From: Clostridiaceae bacterium
GTDB lineage: Bacteria; Bacillota; Clostridia; Lachnospirales; Lachnospiraceae
NCBI GenBank assembly: GCA_910574345.1
Contig: CAJSZV010000030.1
Span: 1 to 56,752 of the forward strand
Direction: 5' to 3'
DNA: 56,752 nucleotides
Under the pieces are notes generated by a model, which had not been told where the DNA came from, searched no databases, and worked only from the letters and a program-made list of their open reading frames with translations. The position numbers and the translations under genes are program-made. Below, in pieces: positions 47,421-56,752 of the stretch; position 1 is the stretch's first letter, and each line of letters starts with the position of its first letter.

Positions 47421-47579
47421 GTGGAGTGGAAGTGCAAAAACTGTAAAAAAGTATTGAAAAAGGGTAAAAGTTATGTTAATCTGTCATCAGGACAAATCAG
47501 CAGGACTCCTGATTCTGAAAGGCAGAAAAAAGCCAACGGCTTTATCCTGACTAGGAAAAGAACAGGAGTGATATCATGA
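47421..47579 (+). CDS. Small Cys-motif protein, 52 residues
   Basis: A GTG-started frame directly after the preceding stop codon. It encodes 52 residues beginning VEWKCKNCKKVLKKGKSYV, with a CxxC motif that resembles half of a Com-type zinc ribbon. Its stop overlaps the start of the recombinase gene (ATGA at 47576), a sign of translational coupling. Weak support from codon content, but the overlap and the Cys motif argue for reality. Confidence 0.6.
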   Translation: MEWKCKNCKKVLKKGKSYVNLSSGQISRTPDSERQKKANGFILTRKRTGVIS

Positions 47580-47788
47580 AAAATCAAACACATTTCTATG
47601 TTGCCATGTATCTCCGCCTTTCCAGGGATGACGGAGACAGAGATGGCACATCCAGGCTTGAGAGCAACAGCATAGGGAGCCAGAGGGAGATGATCCGTTC
47701 TTTTTTAAGAGAGCAGGAGGATATGGAACTCTATGATTCCTATGTAGATGACGGATTCTCAGGCGGTAATTTTGTTGAGGTAAGATAA
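47576..47788 (+). pseudogene. Serine recombinase of the first element, truncated by an insertion
   Basis: Only the N-terminal 65 or so residues of a large serine recombinase remain: the catalytic Ser16 in YLRLSRDDGD, SIGSQREMIRSFLREQ, and YVDDGFSGGNF. Normal proteins continue with a DRPGF-like segment, but here the frame runs into VEVR and stops. The break coincides with the left end of the second element, whose own recombinase lies head-on at 47837. The missing remainder should lie at the far right end of the second element, outside the window. Confidence 0.85.
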
Positions 47789-47836: not shown

Positions 47837-49558
<1,722 letters not shown>

Positions 49559-49613: not shown

Positions 49614-49781
49614 CTATTTCCGGGCGTTTGCGGGGTTCAGTTCCATGTCTTTGCGAATGAGTTTTTTTATCTTTTTATCCAGTGTGTCCGTTGCGCGTTC
49701 ACTTGCGGACGAACATACAAGGTAAGTAACTTTTCCTATTTTATGCTCCGTTGTGGTAACGGGCGTTTGGTTTTGCGTCAA
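49614..49781 (-). CDS. TnpW-like small transposon protein
   Basis: A 55-residue protein with the conserved HKIGKVTYLVCSSASERATD segment of the TnpW family, which sits beside TnpX-type recombinases. Function not established. I chose a TTG start at 49781 with AGGGGGA six bases upstream rather than the longer frame. Confidence 0.8.
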   Translation of the reverse strand: MTQNQTPVTTTEHKIGKVTYLVCSSASERATDTLDKKIKKLIRKDMELNPANARK

Positions 49782-49841
49782 AGAAAATCCCCCTTTCTTT
49801 CGCAAACATATAATATAGTCTATGAATAGCAGCAAGTCCAC

Positions 49842-50258: not shown

Positions 50259-50525
50259 TTATTCCTCTGCCTTAAAGGTGAGGACAGCCATCATCAGTTT
50301 TGCTTGCAGCCGTTCCCGAATGTCGTGGTCTACGCCAAAATAGACGTTCCCGCGCTCGTCGTACAGCTTCCGCATGGAGAGGCGGGCTATGTAGCCGCTG
50401 AAATGCTGCAAGACAATCTTCATGGCGTCCGGGTCGCCCTTTGTCGCTGCCACAATGACAGGATAAGGAACAAGGGCATTTTCCGGGTAGCCGGGTTCGT
50501 TACCATTCGTCCCATTCATCAGCAT
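50259..50525 (-). CDS. Helix-turn-helix domain protein of the second element
   Basis: An 88-residue protein of the same small HTH family as 46297-46536. Conserved features are VIVAATKGDPDAMKIVLQHF and DIRERLQAKLMMAVLTF. Its start lies within the end of the sigma-like gene, so the two are translationally coupled. Alternative internal ATG starts exist near 50519. Confidence 0.8.
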   Translation of the reverse strand: MLMNGTNGNEPGYPENALVPYPVIVAATKGDPDAMKIVLQHFSGYIARLSMRKLYDERGNVYFGVDHDIRERLQAKLMMAVLTFKAEE

Positions 50526-50940
50526 TTTCCTCCAGATATTTTCTTAATTTCTCAAAAGAGCTTGTCCGCCTGTACTGTATCGTGCTTCTCGACGTGTTGA
50601 ACAGCTCCGCAATCTCGGTATCGTTCATTCCCTCGAAGTAATACAGCAATATGGCTTTGCGCTTTTCTTCCGGCAAAGTACGGATTGCTTCAAGAAGCAG
50701 CTTTGGCGTGATTTTCTTCCCGGCTTTCTCAAAGACGGTTTCGGCGGCTTCACGTTTGAAATATTCATCAAACGTATGAAGCTGCCGCGCTTCGTCTAAG
50801 GTCATGTCGGAAAAGGTCACTTCCTTTGCCTTGTGTCTGCGAAGTTCTCTATGGGTGTCGCAAGCTTCATTGTGCAATACCGTATTACAAAACTTCTGAA
50901 AAGCACACTGTTTGTAAAACTCCCTGCTATTAGGTTCCAC
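50500..50940 (-). CDS. Sigma-70 region 4-like protein of the second element
   Basis: A 146-residue protein parallel to that at 45871. The C-terminal part has IRTLPEEKRKAILLYYF and DTEIAELFNTSRSTIQYRR, a sigma region 4-type HTH. The GTG at 50940 is preceded by AAGGAGGTGAGAAT; the upstream extension to 51045 is unlikely. It probably controls transfer gene expression of the element. Confidence 0.82.
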   Translation of the reverse strand: MEPNSREFYKQCAFQKFCNTVLHNEACDTHRELRRHKAKEVTFSDMTLDEARQLHTFDEYFKREAAETVFEKAGKKITPKLLLEAIRTLPEEKRKAILLYYFEGMNDTEIAELFNTSRSTIQYRRTSSFEKLRKYLEENADEWDEW

Positions 50941-51041
50941 ATTCTCACCTCCTTTCTCGTTGGAAAGTTGGTGGTGCTTCCCCCCTTTTCGCGGGGCAAT
51001 ACGGCGTTTTTCAAAAACGCCGAAGATTTTTTGAAATTTCT

Positions 51042-51250: not shown

Positions 51251-51399
51251 GATTTCAACAGTGATACCGCGTCATTTCATTAGAAGATAAAAAGAAACGG
51301 CGGCTTTGATTTTTCAAAGCTGCTGCGGAAATCAAAGAACGACAAGCAACAGTTCTGATTTTGCTCCAATATGGTTATTAGGGGCACAAATTAAAATCA

Positions 51400-51446
51400 A
51401 AAAAGAGCCGATAACAGCAGTATTTCAAACTGCATATTATCGGCTC
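51400..51446 (-). terminator. Rho-independent terminator of the methylase gene
   Basis: On the minus strand AGAGCCGATAA...TTATCGGCTCT (extended by CAG/CTG) is followed by TTTTTT. Confidence 0.85.
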
Positions 51447-51477: not shown

Positions 51478-52467
51478 TTATTTCTGTTGTTTTTTGGCTT
51501 TATTATATGTATTAGCTAACTGTCCACAAGCTGCTTTAATCTCTCTACCATGAGAAACTCTCATGGTAACTTCAAGTCCTGTTTGCTCTAATTGATGTTT
51601 GAACGCAACCATTTCTTGTTTTTGTGGTGCTCTAATTTTTGAATTACTCGTCGGGTTGTATTGCAGCACGTTAATCATAACATTTTTGCCCTTAAACCAT
51701 TTTGCAAGTTGCCTTATATCTGAGGAACGGTCATTTATACCTGGTAAAAGCAAATACGCAAATACCACTTTTCGATTATGCCTTTGAGAATAGGACAATG
51801 CTTGCTTAACAACATCTTCAATAGCGTACATGTGCATATGAGGAATGATACAGTTTCTCGCAGCCTGTGTTGCTGCATGTAAAGATATTGTCAACTGAAT
51901 TTTTAGATGTTCTTCGCGCAATTTTTTTAATTGATTAACTGGACCAACTGTTGATACGGTAATGCCGTCGGTTGGAAAGTTAAGTCCATTTCTATCTCGA
52001 AGAATATGGATTGCTGCAATCAAGTTGTCGTAATTGAATAAAGGTTCTCCCATTCCCATAAAAACGATACGATTTACTTTTTGACGTATCAATACAACCT
52101 GCTGCACAATTTCAGACGGTGTTAGATTACGAACAAAACCATTGCGTCCGGACTCACAAAAAATACAGCCAACAGAACAACCAACTTGCGTACTTACGCA
52201 AACAGTCCCACCATCTCGCCGTTTAATAAAAACCGTTTCAATATACCTGTTATCTTTCAATTCATAAACATACTTTTCAGTATCGCTACTTTTATAGACT
52301 TTTTTTGTTGATATTGATAGATTTTCTTTGTGAAATGGCTGTTTATACAATTCCGTATATAAGGCTCTTGCTTTATCCTCTCCAATTACTTCCGACATTT
52401 CTTTGTAAGTAAATCCGTATGGGTCATTCAATATTTCCGTAGGTGTACTTTTAGGTAAGTGTTTCAT
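51478..52467 (-). CDS. RlmN/Cfr-family radical SAM 23S rRNA methyltransferase, candidate resistance gene
   Basis: A 329-residue radical SAM enzyme of the family that methylates A2503 of 23S rRNA. The [4Fe-4S] cysteines are Cys97, Cys101 and Cys104 (GCSVGCIFC). The methyl-carrying catalytic cysteines correspond to Cys90 (VCVSTQVGC) and Cys314 (AACGQL). VFMGMGEPL and ISLHAATQ are conserved. It is shorter at the N-terminus than housekeeping RlmN and Cfr. Motifs after the cluster (GFVRNL) are RlmN-like, so C2 versus C8 methylation cannot be decided. Its AT-rich composition against GC-richer neighbours, position in a mobile element and attenuator suggest a ribosome-targeting antibiotic resistance role. 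Confidence 0.78.
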   Translation of the reverse strand: MKHLPKSTPTEILNDPYGFTYKEMSEVIGEDKARALYTELYKQPFHKENLSISTKKVYKSSDTEKYVYELKDNRYIETVFIKRRDGGTVCVSTQVGCSVGCIFCESGRNGFVRNLTPSEIVQQVVLIRQKVNRIVFMGMGEPLFNYDNLIAAIHILRDRNGLNFPTDGITVSTVGPVNQLKKLREEHLKIQLTISLHAATQAARNCIIPHMHMYAIEDVVKQALSYSQRHNRKVVFAYLLLPGINDRSSDIRQLAKWFKGKNVMINVLQYNPTSNSKIRAPQKQEMVAFKHQLEQTGLEVTMRVSHGREIKAACGQLANTYNKAKKQQK

Positions 52468-52490
52468 TTAAATATCCTTCCTTTTCAAAA

Positions 52491-52670
52491 TTAAAAAGTT
52501 TGTTTTTCAGAGTTTTTGATTATGATTTCTAGTTTTTCAACATCAACGATATGCGTTAATTTACATTTAGGGCAGAAAAGAGGAAAATTTCTTAATACCG
52601 TATTATAAAATACTTGAACCCTCGTCTTTCCGTTACAAATTGGACATTTTATCCAATATTTTTCAAGCAT
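52491..52670 (-). CDS. Cysteine-rich KTR domain protein
   Basis: A 59-residue protein with two CxxC motifs (CPICNGKTRVQV and CPKCK), the hallmark of the cysteine-rich KTR family found beside resistance genes in Firmicutes transposons. Function unknown; a zinc ribbon is likely. I start it at 52670, after the AAAGGAG site, because a terminator hairpin occupies 52690-52731 and excludes the longer frame. Confidence 0.85.
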   Translation of the reverse strand: MLEKYWIKCPICNGKTRVQVFYNTVLRNFPLFCPKCKLTHIVDVEKLEIIIKNSEKQTF

Positions 52671-52689
52671 AATATTTCTCCTTTTGCGC

Positions 52690-52731
52690 AAAAAAATGCA
52701 GGTCAATTCTCAACATGAGCATTGACCTGCA
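52690..52731 (-). terminator. Leader terminator (attenuator) upstream of the KTR-methylase operon
   Basis: On the minus strand TGCAGGTCAAT (52721-52731) pairs with ATTGACCTGCA (52697-52707) and is followed by seven T residues, 20 bases before the KTR gene. As it lies between promoter and structural genes it must be read through for expression. Confidence 0.85.
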
Positions 52732-52930
52732 TTTATACATATAATACTACAACAAAATTAAGGCATAGTTTTTATACTATGTCTATACGTCGTTAGTTTT
52801 GTTGTATAGCATACGCAAAATAAGCATGACAAAAAAGCCCATATTGAAAATGGGAAAAATCTTTTTTGATTTCAATGCTTATCGAATACGCATGCTATGT
52901 AACATAAACATTCCCCCCCTTTTATATAAT
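52732..52930 (-). promoter_or_regulatory. Attenuator leader with alternative hairpins
   Basis: Minus-strand leader RNA containing mutually overlapping pairings. The leader-peptide segment (52877-52897) can pair with 52804-52825, while TACAACAAAA in the same downstream segment can instead pair with TTTTGTTGTA (about 52745-52760). A CATAGT/ACTATG hairpin lies between. This arrangement resembles ribosome-stalling attenuators of resistance genes. Confidence 0.6.
52879..52905 (-). CDS. Leader peptide MLHSMRIR
   Basis: An 8-codon frame, ATG at 52905 and stop TAA, placed shortly after the promoter. The G-rich sequence AGGGGGGAATGTTT gives a ribosome binding site 7 bases before the ATG. An in-frame ATG two codons upstream lies too close to the site. 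Stalling here would change leader folding and permit read-through of the terminator at 52690-52731. Confidence 0.65.
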   Translation of the reverse strand: MLHSMRIR

Positions 52931-52958
52931 ATTATATACAAAAGCAGCTTGTTGTCAA
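52931..52958 (-). promoter_or_regulatory. Promoter of the KTR-methylase operon
   Basis: On the minus strand TTGACA (52953-52958), a 16-base spacer and TATAAT (52931-52936). Confidence 0.8.
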
Positions 52959-53054: not shown

Positions 53055-53408
53055 ATGGCAAAAAGACCAGTACCACGATACGACTTTAAGGCTTTTGGGG
53101 CAGCGATAAAGGCAGCGCGTGAGGGATGCAAGGAGAGCCGCAAGAAAGTAGGCGACGAAATGTTTATCTCGCCGCGCTACCTTGCGAACATTGAGAACAA
53201 GGGGCAGCACCCAAGTTTACAGATATTCTTTGAGCTGATACAGCGTTACCATATATCCGTAGACCAATTCCTTTTAGAAACGCCGCCGGAGAAGAACACG
53301 CAGCGGCGGCAGCTTGACGCGCTTCTTGACGGTATGAGCGATACAGGCATACGGATTGTAACCGCAACGGCAAAGGAGATTTCCGAAGTCGAAAAAGAGG
53401 GCGAATAG
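53055..53408 (+). CDS. XRE-type helix-turn-helix regulator
   Basis: A 117-residue regulator with an N-terminal lambda-repressor-like HTH (about residues 12-70: FGAAIKAAREGCKESRKKVGD, YLANIENKGQHPSLQIFFEL) and a short C-terminal tail. It likely represses transfer or recombination genes of the element. A gap of 265 bases to mobC follows. Confidence 0.88.
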   Translation: MAKRPVPRYDFKAFGAAIKAAREGCKESRKKVGDEMFISPRYLANIENKGQHPSLQIFFELIQRYHISVDQFLLETPPEKNTQRRQLDALLDGMSDTGIRIVTATAKEISEVEKEGE

Positions 53409-53675: not shown

Positions 53676-54005
53676 ATGGACGGACGCAAAAGGACAGTGC
53701 AAATCAAATTCAGAGTGACGGAAGCGGAACGGGATTTAATACTGGAAAAAATGAAGCTCGTACCCACCCGGAACATGGCGGCGTATCTGCGGAAGATTGC
53801 CATTGACGGGTATATCATTCAGATAGACCACGCCGATATAAAGGCTATGACCGCAGAGATACAGAAAATCGGTGTCAACGTCAACCAGATAGCACGCCGC
53901 GTAAACGCGACGGGGAACGCATACCAAGAGGACATAGAGGAAATAAAGGGGGTGCTTGCGGAGATATGGCGGTTACAAAGATTAAGCCTATTAAAAGCAC
54001 TCTAA
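53676..54005 (+). CDS. mobC: MobC-family mobilisation protein
   Basis: A 109-residue relaxosome accessory protein that helps the relaxase bind and melt oriT. A ribbon-helix-helix-like N-terminus (QIKFRVTEAERDLILEKM) and the conserved IGVNVNQIARRVN segment are visible. I start it at 53676 after AAGGAG; the open frame begins at 53625. The relaxase gene overlaps its 3' end by 40 bases. Confidence 0.88.
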   Translation: MDGRKRTVQIKFRVTEAERDLILEKMKLVPTRNMAAYLRKIAIDGYIIQIDHADIKAMTAEIQKIGVNVNQIARRVNATGNAYQEDIEEIKGVLAEIWRLQRLSLLKAL

Positions 54006-55312
54006 GCAAAGCCCTTGACTATATCGAAAACCCGGACAAGACGGACGGGAAAATGCTTGTGTCCTCTTTCGGTTGCTCCTATGAAACGGCAGATATTGAG
54101 TTTGAATATACCCTGTCGCAAGCACTCCAAAAGGGGAACAATTTAGCCTTTCATCTGATACAGTCCTTTGAGCCGGGGGAAGTCGATTATCAGAAAGCCC
54201 ATGAAATCGGAAAGCAGCTTGCCGACGCGGTAACAAAGGGGCAGCATGAGTATGTACTCACGACGCACATTGACAAAGGACACGTCCATAACCATATCAT
54301 TTTTTGCGCGGTGAACTTTGTAGACCACCATAAATACAATTCCAACAAAAGGAGCTATTACGGCATACGGAACATGAGCGACAAGCTGTGCCGGGAAAAT
54401 GGCTTGTCCGTTGTCGTCCCCGGCAAGGGCAGCAAGGGAAAGAGCTATGCGGAGTACCAGGCAGAAAAGACGGGTACAAGTTGGAAAGGCAAGCTGAAAA
54501 CCACTGTTGACGCGCTTATCCCCCAAGTTTCCAGTTTTGAGGAATTGCTAACGCGGTTACAGGCGGCGGGCTATGAGATAAAGCCGGGGAAATATGTATC
54601 ATGCCGCGCCCCCGGACAGGAACGCTTCACCCGCCTTAAAACCCTCGGCGCAGACTATACAGAGGAAGCCGTAAGGGAACGGATAGCGGGCAGACGGACA
54701 AAGGTGGCGAAAGCTCCCAGAGAGCAGCGCGGCGTGTCGCTGCTTATCGACATTGAGAACAGTATCAAGGCAGCGCAGAGTAAGGGCTATGAACAGTGGG
54801 CGAAAATCCACAATCTGAAACAGGCAGCTAAAACAATGAATTTCTTGACGGAACATAAGATTGAGCAGTACGCGGATTTAGTCAGCCGGATTGAGGAAAT
54901 GGCAGCGGAAAGCGGACAGGCGGCAGACGCATTGAAGAACGCCGAAAAGCGGCTTGCGGAAATGGCGGTGCTTATCAAGAATGTTTCCACCTATCAAAAG
55001 ACAAAGCCTGTCTATGACGCATACCGCAAGGCAAGGAACAGGGAGAAGTACCGCGCCGGACAGGAACAGGCAATTATCCTCCATGAAGCCGCCGTAAGGT
55101 CACTGAAAGCGGCGGGCATTGCGAAGCTCCCGAACCTCGCCGCGCTGCAATCGGAGTATGAAGCCCTCCAAGCGCAGAAAGAAGCCCTTTACGCCGACTA
55201 TGGAAAATTGAAAAAGAAAGTCCGGGAATATGATATTATCAAGCAGAACATTGACAGCATTTTACAGGCAGACAGACAGCCGGAACGGGAAAAGGAAACA
55301 GAACGCGGATAA
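53966..55312 (+). CDS. MobA/VirD2-family relaxase
   Basis: A 448-residue conjugative relaxase. The N-terminal catalytic domain has the histidine triad HVHNHIIF (His106, His108, His110), a further His101 and the early AVTKIKPIKSTLSKALDYI block. The C-terminal half is helical and charged. It nicks oriT and leads the strand into the recipient. With MobC it makes the element mobilizable, as no coupling protein or mating-pair genes are visible in the window. Confidence 0.93.
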   Translation: MAVTKIKPIKSTLSKALDYIENPDKTDGKMLVSSFGCSYETADIEFEYTLSQALQKGNNLAFHLIQSFEPGEVDYQKAHEIGKQLADAVTKGQHEYVLTTHIDKGHVHNHIIFCAVNFVDHHKYNSNKRSYYGIRNMSDKLCRENGLSVVVPGKGSKGKSYAEYQAEKTGTSWKGKLKTTVDALIPQVSSFEELLTRLQAAGYEIKPGKYVSCRAPGQERFTRLKTLGADYTEEAVRERIAGRRTKVAKAPREQRGVSLLIDIENSIKAAQSKGYEQWAKIHNLKQAAKTMNFLTEHKIEQYADLVSRIEEMAAESGQAADALKNAEKRLAEMAVLIKNVSTYQKTKPVYDAYRKARNREKYRAGQEQAIILHEAAVRSLKAAGIAKLPNLAALQSEYEALQAQKEALYADYGKLKKKVREYDIIKQNIDSILQADRQPEREKETERG

Positions 55313-56375: not shown

Positions 56376-56640
56376 TCATACCTCCATATCGTGATTTTTT
56401 GTTTTTGCCGCCGCCTTTTTCGGGGCGGTCTTTGCCTTGTCTGCTTTAAGCTGCGCCCGGATAGAGGGGCGGGGCTTCCTTATCTTCCTGTCCCGGTTCT
56501 CCCCCTTGTCAATCAGCGCATACGTCCCATGTCTGCCCTCGATTTTGGAAAAGGCAAGGGTCTTGTAGGGCAGCATGGAGAAAAGGCGGTCAGTGTCCTT
56601 TGTGGCTGCAAGCTGCATGAACGCCGGGGAAAGCTCTACT
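56376..56640 (-). pseudogene. DUF4316-type protein, 3' fragment cut by an insertion
   Basis: The frame is open from 56640 down to the stop at 56376 and encodes about 87 residues ending in a basic Lys/Ala-rich tail. VELSPAFMQLAATKDTDRLF precedes IEGRHGTYALIDKGENRDRK. Such sequence forms the C-terminus of large YodL/DUF4316 proteins. At about 56640 the coding sequence gives way to a repeat-bearing sequence, so the 5' part is separated or lost. A start at the internal ATG (56618) is possible but unlikely to be native. Confidence 0.65.
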
Positions 56641-56752
56641 GATTATTCTAAAGCTTGGGAGCCACTAATTTAAAGCTTGAGAGCCACCCGAATCCAGTGT
56701 ATTTAAAAGCTTGAGAGCCACCACTATATATTGTGGTCAGCCAAATATATTG
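56640..56752. mobile_element. Probable end of an inserted element (IS21-like)
   Basis: This terminal stretch is AT-rich and carries three direct repeats of AAAGCTTGAGAGCCAC. Multiple subterminal repeats next to a TG terminus are typical of IS21-family elements. No transposase is within the window, so the family assignment is tentative. Confidence 0.45.
56650..56721 (+). repeat. Three direct repeats AAAGCTTGAGAGCCAC
   Basis: Copies at 56650-56665 (one mismatch, GGGAG), 56672-56687 and 56706-56721, spaced 22 and 34 bases start to start. A near-palindrome CCACTATATATTGTGG follows at about 56719-56736. Confidence 0.85.

Follow-up and report, generated by a model that had tools for sequence, protein, structure and literature searches.

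MrmA (WP_002584956.1), described in 2025, is an RlmN-type methylase carried by Tn6105 within Tn6110/Tn7806 of C. difficile RT176. In E. coli delta-tolC it is reported to have raised the minimum inhibitory concentration (MIC) of erythromycin from 2 to 512-1024 and that of pristinamycin IA from 64-128 to 1024, with no MIC rise for tylosin, pristinamycin IIA, clindamycin, tiamulin, chloramphenicol or linezolid. Of the drugs tested, it acted only on erythromycin, streptogramin B and streptogramins A and B combined, and its authors propose a target other than A2503 (PMC11983580). In C. difficile, the Tn6110 region adjoining a 23S rRNA methyltransferase figures in k-mer models of azithromycin and clarithromycin resistance (PMC5037627), and another k-mer study linked Tn6110 to azithromycin resistance (PMC6211763). 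Here we describe a locus of this kind in a 56,752-nt stretch of DNA, contig CAJSZV010000030.1 from a Clostridiaceae bacterium (the window), in which an mrmA-type gene lies downstream of a leader RNA.

The best-studied relative of this leader is that of mef(E), which encodes the peptide MTASMRLR and whose macrolide induction, terminator and antiterminator were tested by mutation. The leaders closest to the one in the window control mef, msr and erm genes, their inducers are 14- and 15-membered macrolides, and erm(K) is regulated by transcription attenuation (PMC4335068).

The window locus is, we think, quite likely an MrmA-type resistance operon that is mobile and induced by macrolides, its methylase being very probably under the control of a mef/erm(D)-type macrolide attenuator. 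An earlier reading of this DNA from its letters alone (the sequence-only reading) had proposed a promoter, a leader peptide MLHSMRIR, alternative hairpins and a terminator ahead of a KTR gene and a methylase gene, all on a mobilizable element. All of the parts were found in that order, on the minus strand (Table 1).

The leader upstream of the methylase gene

A scan for promoter-like sites returned 9, compared to 6.9 +/- 2.8 in shuffled sequence; as this is near expectation, only the perfect promoter listed in Table 1 stands out. The leader open reading frame (ORF) reads ATG TTA CAT AGC ATG CGT ATT CGA TAA, and a second in-frame ATG six bases 5′ of its start could extend the peptide by MF. MLHSMRIR meets the R/K-x-R/K criterion for short mef/erm(D)-type leader peptides. 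Between the leader and the genes, as expected of a mef/erm(D)-type attenuator, stands an intrinsic terminator with 19-nt arms of 95% complementarity followed by a U tract; with its tail, its folding energy is -23.7 kcal/mol. A simple terminator scan missed this site and listed three others.

The peptide is identical across the group of loci whose methylase is 85% identical to that of the window, where its codons show two synonymous changes and no other. This conservation is beyond chance. A 73%-identical gene is preceded by the leader MLHSIRIRK, and a 76%-identical gene, which carries an internal stop, by MLHSIRIWK and a like terminator. The hairpins are kept in an alignment of four leaders.

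The whole leader matches Rfam family RF02862. At E <= 0.001, the family was found in 13 of 150 genomes of the window's bacterial family, 10 times before mrmA and three times before a mef(A)-type gene, with 10 of the 13 matches above the family's own cut-off; the 14 control genomes gave no match. All three mef genes behind it pass the NCBIfam Mef(A) model (828.6, 871.4 and 690.4 bits; cut-off 675), and before two mef(A) genes the leader itself scores 209.2 and 203.5 bits. The leader peptides of the three mef genes are MTASMRLR, MTASIRLR and MLYSRLR. The KTR gene and the appearance of the leader had suggested a relation to the Tn916 tet(M) leader; this was dropped because, among the 150 genomes, those RF02862 matches that had no mrmA preceded mef(A). 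The leader plus KTR region has nucleotide similarity in two plasmid records.

RF02862 is named as an Enterococcus small RNA (sRNA), sRNA 1300. In the 13 genomes in which we found it, it is a mef(A)/mrmA leader and not a free-standing sRNA.

We then considered whether the leader could switch. The segment 52851-52837, in the loop of the R1/R2 hairpin, is complementary, G-U pairs included, to 15 contiguous positions of the terminator's loop and 3′ arm (52720-52706). We compared this duplex, taken from a 60-nt region tested against the terminator's loop and 3′ arm, with 1000 dinucleotide shuffles. It was equalled by 9/1000 in the window and by 3/1000 and 0/1000 in two other mrmA-type leaders (L106 and L005); for two mef leaders the counts were 29/1000 and 0/1000. 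When the leader is masked, the predicted cost of losing the window terminator falls from 15.5 kcal/mol to 9.7 or 8.2 kcal/mol. In two mef leaders (L103 and L102), the best masked fold has no terminator and the cost of losing it is 0.0, although their terminators are hardly favoured even unmasked (1.2 and 3.4). A third mef leader, L111, retains its terminator as the window does (23.4 free, 6.6 and 6.2 masked), and masked folding therefore does not separate a switch from no switch. Folding leaves a switch in the window plausible without proving it.

Table 1. Features of the window, with positions counted from its first base
Feature	Position	Strand	Basis or remark
Sigma-70 type promoter, TTGACA-16-TATAAT	52931-52958	-	consensus match 12/12
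Leader ORF, 8 codons, MLHSMRIR, ending with the R-x-R macrolide/ketolide arrest motif	52879-52905	-	
Whole leader, Rfam RF02862 (sRNA_1300)	52689-52900	-	50.1 bits; gathering score 48.8
R1/R2 long hairpin, leader ORF paired with downstream sequence	52803-52904	-	fold and consensus fold
Candidate antiterminator segment ATTTTCAATATGGGC in the R1/R2 loop	52837-52851	-	alternative fold
R3/R4 small hairpin	52749-52793	-	fold and consensus fold
Intrinsic terminator of the attenuator	52687-52734	-	arms 52694-52712/52716-52734
KTR ORF, 59 aa, between attenuator and methylase	52491-52670	-	PF14205, 74.6 bits, cut-off 25.5
mrmA-type radical S-adenosylmethionine (SAM) methylase of the RlmN/Cfr family, 329 aa	51478-52467	-	
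Probable operon terminator downstream of the methylase, a hairpin with T run	51399-51446	-	read from sequence
Sigma-70 family factor of the element	50500-50967	-	
HTH_16 protein of the element	50259-50525	-	PF12645
TnpW-type small protein	49614-49841	-	PF14202
Large serine recombinase of the element	47837-49513	-	PF00239, PF07508, PF13408, PF14287
Helix-turn-helix (HTH) regulator, divergent	53055-53408	+	PF01381
MobC/NikA-type mobilization protein	53685-54005	+	PF21983, PF05713
Relaxase	53966-55312	+	PF03432

The methylase, its clade and its relation to MrmA

The methylase carries the CX3CX2C cluster motif and, as the sequence-only reading had it, both catalytic cysteines: C90, C97, C101, C104 and C314 align with C118, C125, C129, C132 and C355 of E. 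coli RlmN. It scores 270.3 bits against the RlmN model TIGR00048, under the cut-off of 290, and 197.5, 194.4 and 191.1 bits against three curated Cfr models with cut-offs of 530, 468 and 550. The host genome's own RlmN, on contig C8, reaches 435.7 bits, above the RlmN cut-off. At E <= 1e-100, the Cfr profile TIGR04432 had no match in 398 genomes of the phylum, and none in the controls either.

In a tree built by a quick method from rows biased to the query's best matches, with Cfr A, C and D in and Cfr(B) and Cfr(E) out, the window methylase falls in a 13-row clade with a Shimodaira-Hasegawa-like approximate likelihood-ratio test (SH-aLRT) support of 99, apart from the host RlmN and from Cfr A, C and D, which branch elsewhere with a support of 100. 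Its identity to these three Cfr proteins is 28-31%. The distinct clade that had been suggested from the sequence is thus borne out, and the placement inside housekeeping RlmN that had been named as evidence to the contrary was not found. The enzyme is indeed shorter than known Cfr, as had been remarked, but what tells it apart more informatively is its lineage and a shortened N-terminus without the RxxQ signature. RxxQ is missing in 12 of the 13 clade rows and present in 46 of 48 other rows and in all three Cfr rows; the match in the remaining clade row is probably due to chance. At the position of RlmN E278, 12/13 clade rows and 3/3 Cfr rows have Ala.

The window methylase is 85% identical (279/327) to the ORF delimited by the published MrmA cloning primers, with a ratio of nonsynonymous to synonymous substitution rates (dN/dS) of 0.16; both primers match the ends of the 85%-group ORF exactly in 9 loci. 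The KTR ORF, compared with the same group, has a dN/dS of 0.12. The drug classes at first expected (phenicols, lincosamides, oxazolidinones, pleuromutilins and streptogramin A) are probably wrong for this enzyme, given the macrolide-type leader and the spectrum of MrmA, its 85%-identical relative (PMC11983580).

The type of enzyme has been known since 2025, and its control by a leader is apparently unreported: in open-licence PMC papers, supplements excluded, we found no report of leader control of mrmA nor of the peptide MLHSMRIR.

The mobile element and its spread

The recombinase, the MobC/NikA-type protein and the relaxase match their families, in agreement with the mobilizable element of the sequence-only reading. 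On the left, similarity to six other copies ends at 47741-47769; on the right, other copies continue past the contig end, and the copies compared do not share the window's final 115 bases (56638-56752). The genome to which the window belongs has 106 contigs and is scored as 97% complete and 3.3% contaminated. A stretch of 8,872 bp is 100% identical in one genome of another genus.

Several further features were seen in and around the element. A pemK RNA motif (RF02913, 49888-49985, minus strand, 62.9 bits) lies between the recombinase side and the HTH_16 gene, and the same motif is present at two other loci, L182 and L184. At the left edge, a short ORF (47576-47788, plus strand) reads like an N-terminal piece of another serine recombinase. 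The same genome has a second KTR gene (G000:C6:115799-115957); KTR genes, present in 45 of the 150 genomes of the family, are much more frequent than mrmA.

At set E cut-offs, the methylase gene or a near relative was found in 11/150 genomes of the family, 4/295 of the order and 3/398 of the phylum, each count including the window's own genome. Copies at 98-100% amino-acid identity occur in six genus groups of the family, and a second family of the same order contributes two more genomes. We compared 22 mrmA places, 14 of the window type and 8 of the 85% type; a strain kept in two collections may figure twice among them. Of the 22, 20 have the leader peptide and 18 the terminator; the places of the 85% type have the peptide in 8/8 and the terminator in 7/8, and a 23rd place (L201) has both.

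The four places without the terminator differ from one another. In L197 (G148:C9) it was lost by an 80-bp gap, L184 has an insertion with palindromic stretches in its place, and L194 (the second copy in G104) and L182 have a different upstream region. At the join in L182 lies a truncated ORF that, from its motifs, we take to be class A beta-lactamase-like. These four copies are expected not to be under the attenuator described here. The KTR start is missing in three of them, and L202 has no KTR ORF, its attenuator being followed immediately by the methylase gene, so KTR is not a constant part of the arrangement.

Two deeper relatives have neighbours that are also macrolide-related. On the Paraclostridium bifermentans plasmid pHD0315_2-5 (L187, 479-4330), the genes of a Mef-like major facilitator superfamily protein, HflX and a 63%-identical MrmA relative follow one another ahead of tetB(P) and tetA(P); the Mef-like protein has 42.6% identity to a mef(A) product and scores 350.7 bits to Mef(A), under the cut-off of 675. 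In genome G005 (L190 6526-8727, G005:C37), a 64%-identical relative is followed by an RlmA-family 23S rRNA guanine methylase (156.6 bits, below the model cut-off of 303). The ORF lists of L185, L188 and L006 show no evident macrolide-related neighbour, and we saw no leader of the window type ahead of the genes in L006, L092, L101, L185 and L188. On pEJ02 and pEJ03 of Rhodobacter xanthinilyticus (L101 and L189), IS1247 copies flank a clade member of 47% identity together with floR and tet(G).

Mechanism, alternatives and comparison with known systems

From the observed parts, their conservation, their relation to the mef(A) leaders, the separate clade of the enzyme and its relation to the tested MrmA, we infer stalling, read-through, a drug spectrum for this allele and feedback. 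When no drug is present, MLHSMRIR would be translated to its end, the R1/R2 hairpin would reform, the terminator at 52687-52734 would fold, and transcription would end ahead of KTR and the methylase gene. A ribosome whose exit tunnel is occupied by a macrolide would stall at the R-I-R codons and hold the 5′ arm of R1/R2. The loop of R1/R2, thus freed, could pair with the terminator's loop and 3′ arm, and the resulting read-through would allow MrmA to be made. MrmA would then methylate 23S rRNA by radical-SAM chemistry, 14- and 15-membered macrolides would bind poorly, and this poor binding to modified ribosomes should turn the switch off again.

We also entertain a broader hypothesis, tentatively and with slightly more doubt than belief: that the mrmA clade represents a third function within the RlmN/Cfr superfamily, having lost the usual RxxQ and adding its methyl group to a carbon of some nucleotide in the 23S macrolide site that is not A2503, that it is turned on by macrolide stalling at MLHSMRIR and turns itself off once modified ribosomes no longer bind the drug, and that leader and enzyme have spread together among Clostridia on mobile elements.

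Several observations weigh against an inducible operon of the MrmA kind. Masking the leader does not remove the window terminator from the best fold, covariation is weak (both sides changed in 2 of 70 pairs of the thin four-leader alignment), and the RF02862 match of the window leader is narrow (50.1 vs 48.8 bits). Attenuator control is not universal, since the terminator is lacking in 4 of the 22 places. The identification of the 85%-group ORF as MrmA rests on primer matches and not on the MrmA record, and 4 of 13 loci matching the forward primer have no exact match to the reverse primer. Finally, the RLR of the erm(D) leader peptide ErmDL is an arrest site with both erythromycin and telithromycin, yet R-x-R is critical for telithromycin arrest and dispensable for erythromycin arrest (PMC8298421).

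Two of these observations would fit a gene that is constitutive, or regulated only with the transfer genes of the element, its hairpins being decorative: the terminator persists in the masked fold, and some places lack it altogether. We regard this as very improbable given how regularly leader peptide and terminator recur in the 22 places, the like leaders and terminators of the 73-76% relatives, and an antiterminator duplex that beats most shuffles in three mrmA-type leaders. The telithromycin result bears instead on what the leader senses. If the leader answered different or broader ribosome inhibitors (ketolides, lincosamides or phenicols) and not chiefly macrolides, that dependence would be accounted for, as would the R-I-W-K ending of one relative's leader. 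We consider this unlikely, though it is the alternative to which we give the most weight, as the nearest leaders regulate mef, msr and erm genes in response to 14- and 15-membered macrolides (PMC4335068) and the tested relative MrmA acts on erythromycin (PMC11983580).

The enzyme itself allows two further explanations. It could be of the Cfr type, with which it has its superfamily, both catalytic cysteines and the Ala at the RlmN E278 position in common. Its scores fall far below the Cfr cut-offs (197.5 bits against 530 and 191.1 against 550), Cfr A, C and D stand elsewhere in the tree at low identity, and MrmA is reported to give no MIC rise for clindamycin, tiamulin, chloramphenicol or linezolid (PMC11983580), so that a Cfr-type enzyme seems highly unlikely. 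Alternatively, it could be an extra, mobile RlmN whose products are m2A2503 and, in tRNA, m2A37, and whose role would be confined to tuning translation or the sensing by leader peptides, with no resistance conferred. To this we give very little credence: the protein scores below the RlmN cut-off that the host RlmN exceeds, it belongs to a clade that lacks the RxxQ found in nearly all other rows, its leader is of the macrolide type, and MrmA has resistance data (PMC11983580).

The window locus suggests that mrmA is drug-inducible, and inducer-free tests or expression studies could then miss it. It also suggests that MrmA-type resistance is inducible and common to related bacteria. The 2025 paper presented MrmA as an unexpected macrolide-resistance enzyme and left its target open (PMC11983580); the shortened N-terminus may offer a clue to that target. 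Rfam sRNA_1300, in turn, gains a likely meaning as a mef/mrmA macrolide attenuator.

Among known systems, MrmA itself is the nearest: both are RlmN-like radical-SAM methylases that are carried by a mobile element and belong to neither RlmN nor Cfr. The window has another allele and another host, and an attenuator precedes its gene, whereas "leader", "attenuat", "KTR" and "regulat" are absent from the main text of the MrmA paper (PMC11983580). Housekeeping RlmN differs in that the window gene is a second copy beside the host RlmN, in a mobile context, and in that the window protein has a shorter N-terminus without RxxQ. Cfr A, C and D have the superfamily, the cysteines and a mobile resistance role in common with it but represent a distant lineage, with 28-31% identity and three Cfr cut-offs unreached, and the drug spectrum of the near relative MrmA differs from the PhLOPSA resistance that goes with m8A2503 in Cfr. 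Erm, unlike the window enzyme, is a non-radical-SAM methylase of A2058.

The leader, for its part, resembles those of two other kinds of genes. MLHSMRIR is similar to Mef(E)L, MTASMRLR, and to the erm(K)/erm(D) leader MTHSMRLR (PMC4335068), and it has the xxHSMR-x-R form in common with ErmDL, MTHSMRLRFPTLNQ (PMC8298421, PMC10314930, PMC4335068). As in the mef(A)/mef(E)-msr(D) attenuator, the leader ORF lies in R1/R2, followed by R3/R4 and the terminator R5/R6 (PMC4335068; RF02862), and a distal pairing is predicted that could undo the terminator (PMC4335068). The window differs from that system in its peptide, in a predicted switch that is less clear, and in the genes that follow, which are KTR and a methylase and not an efflux/ABC-F operon.
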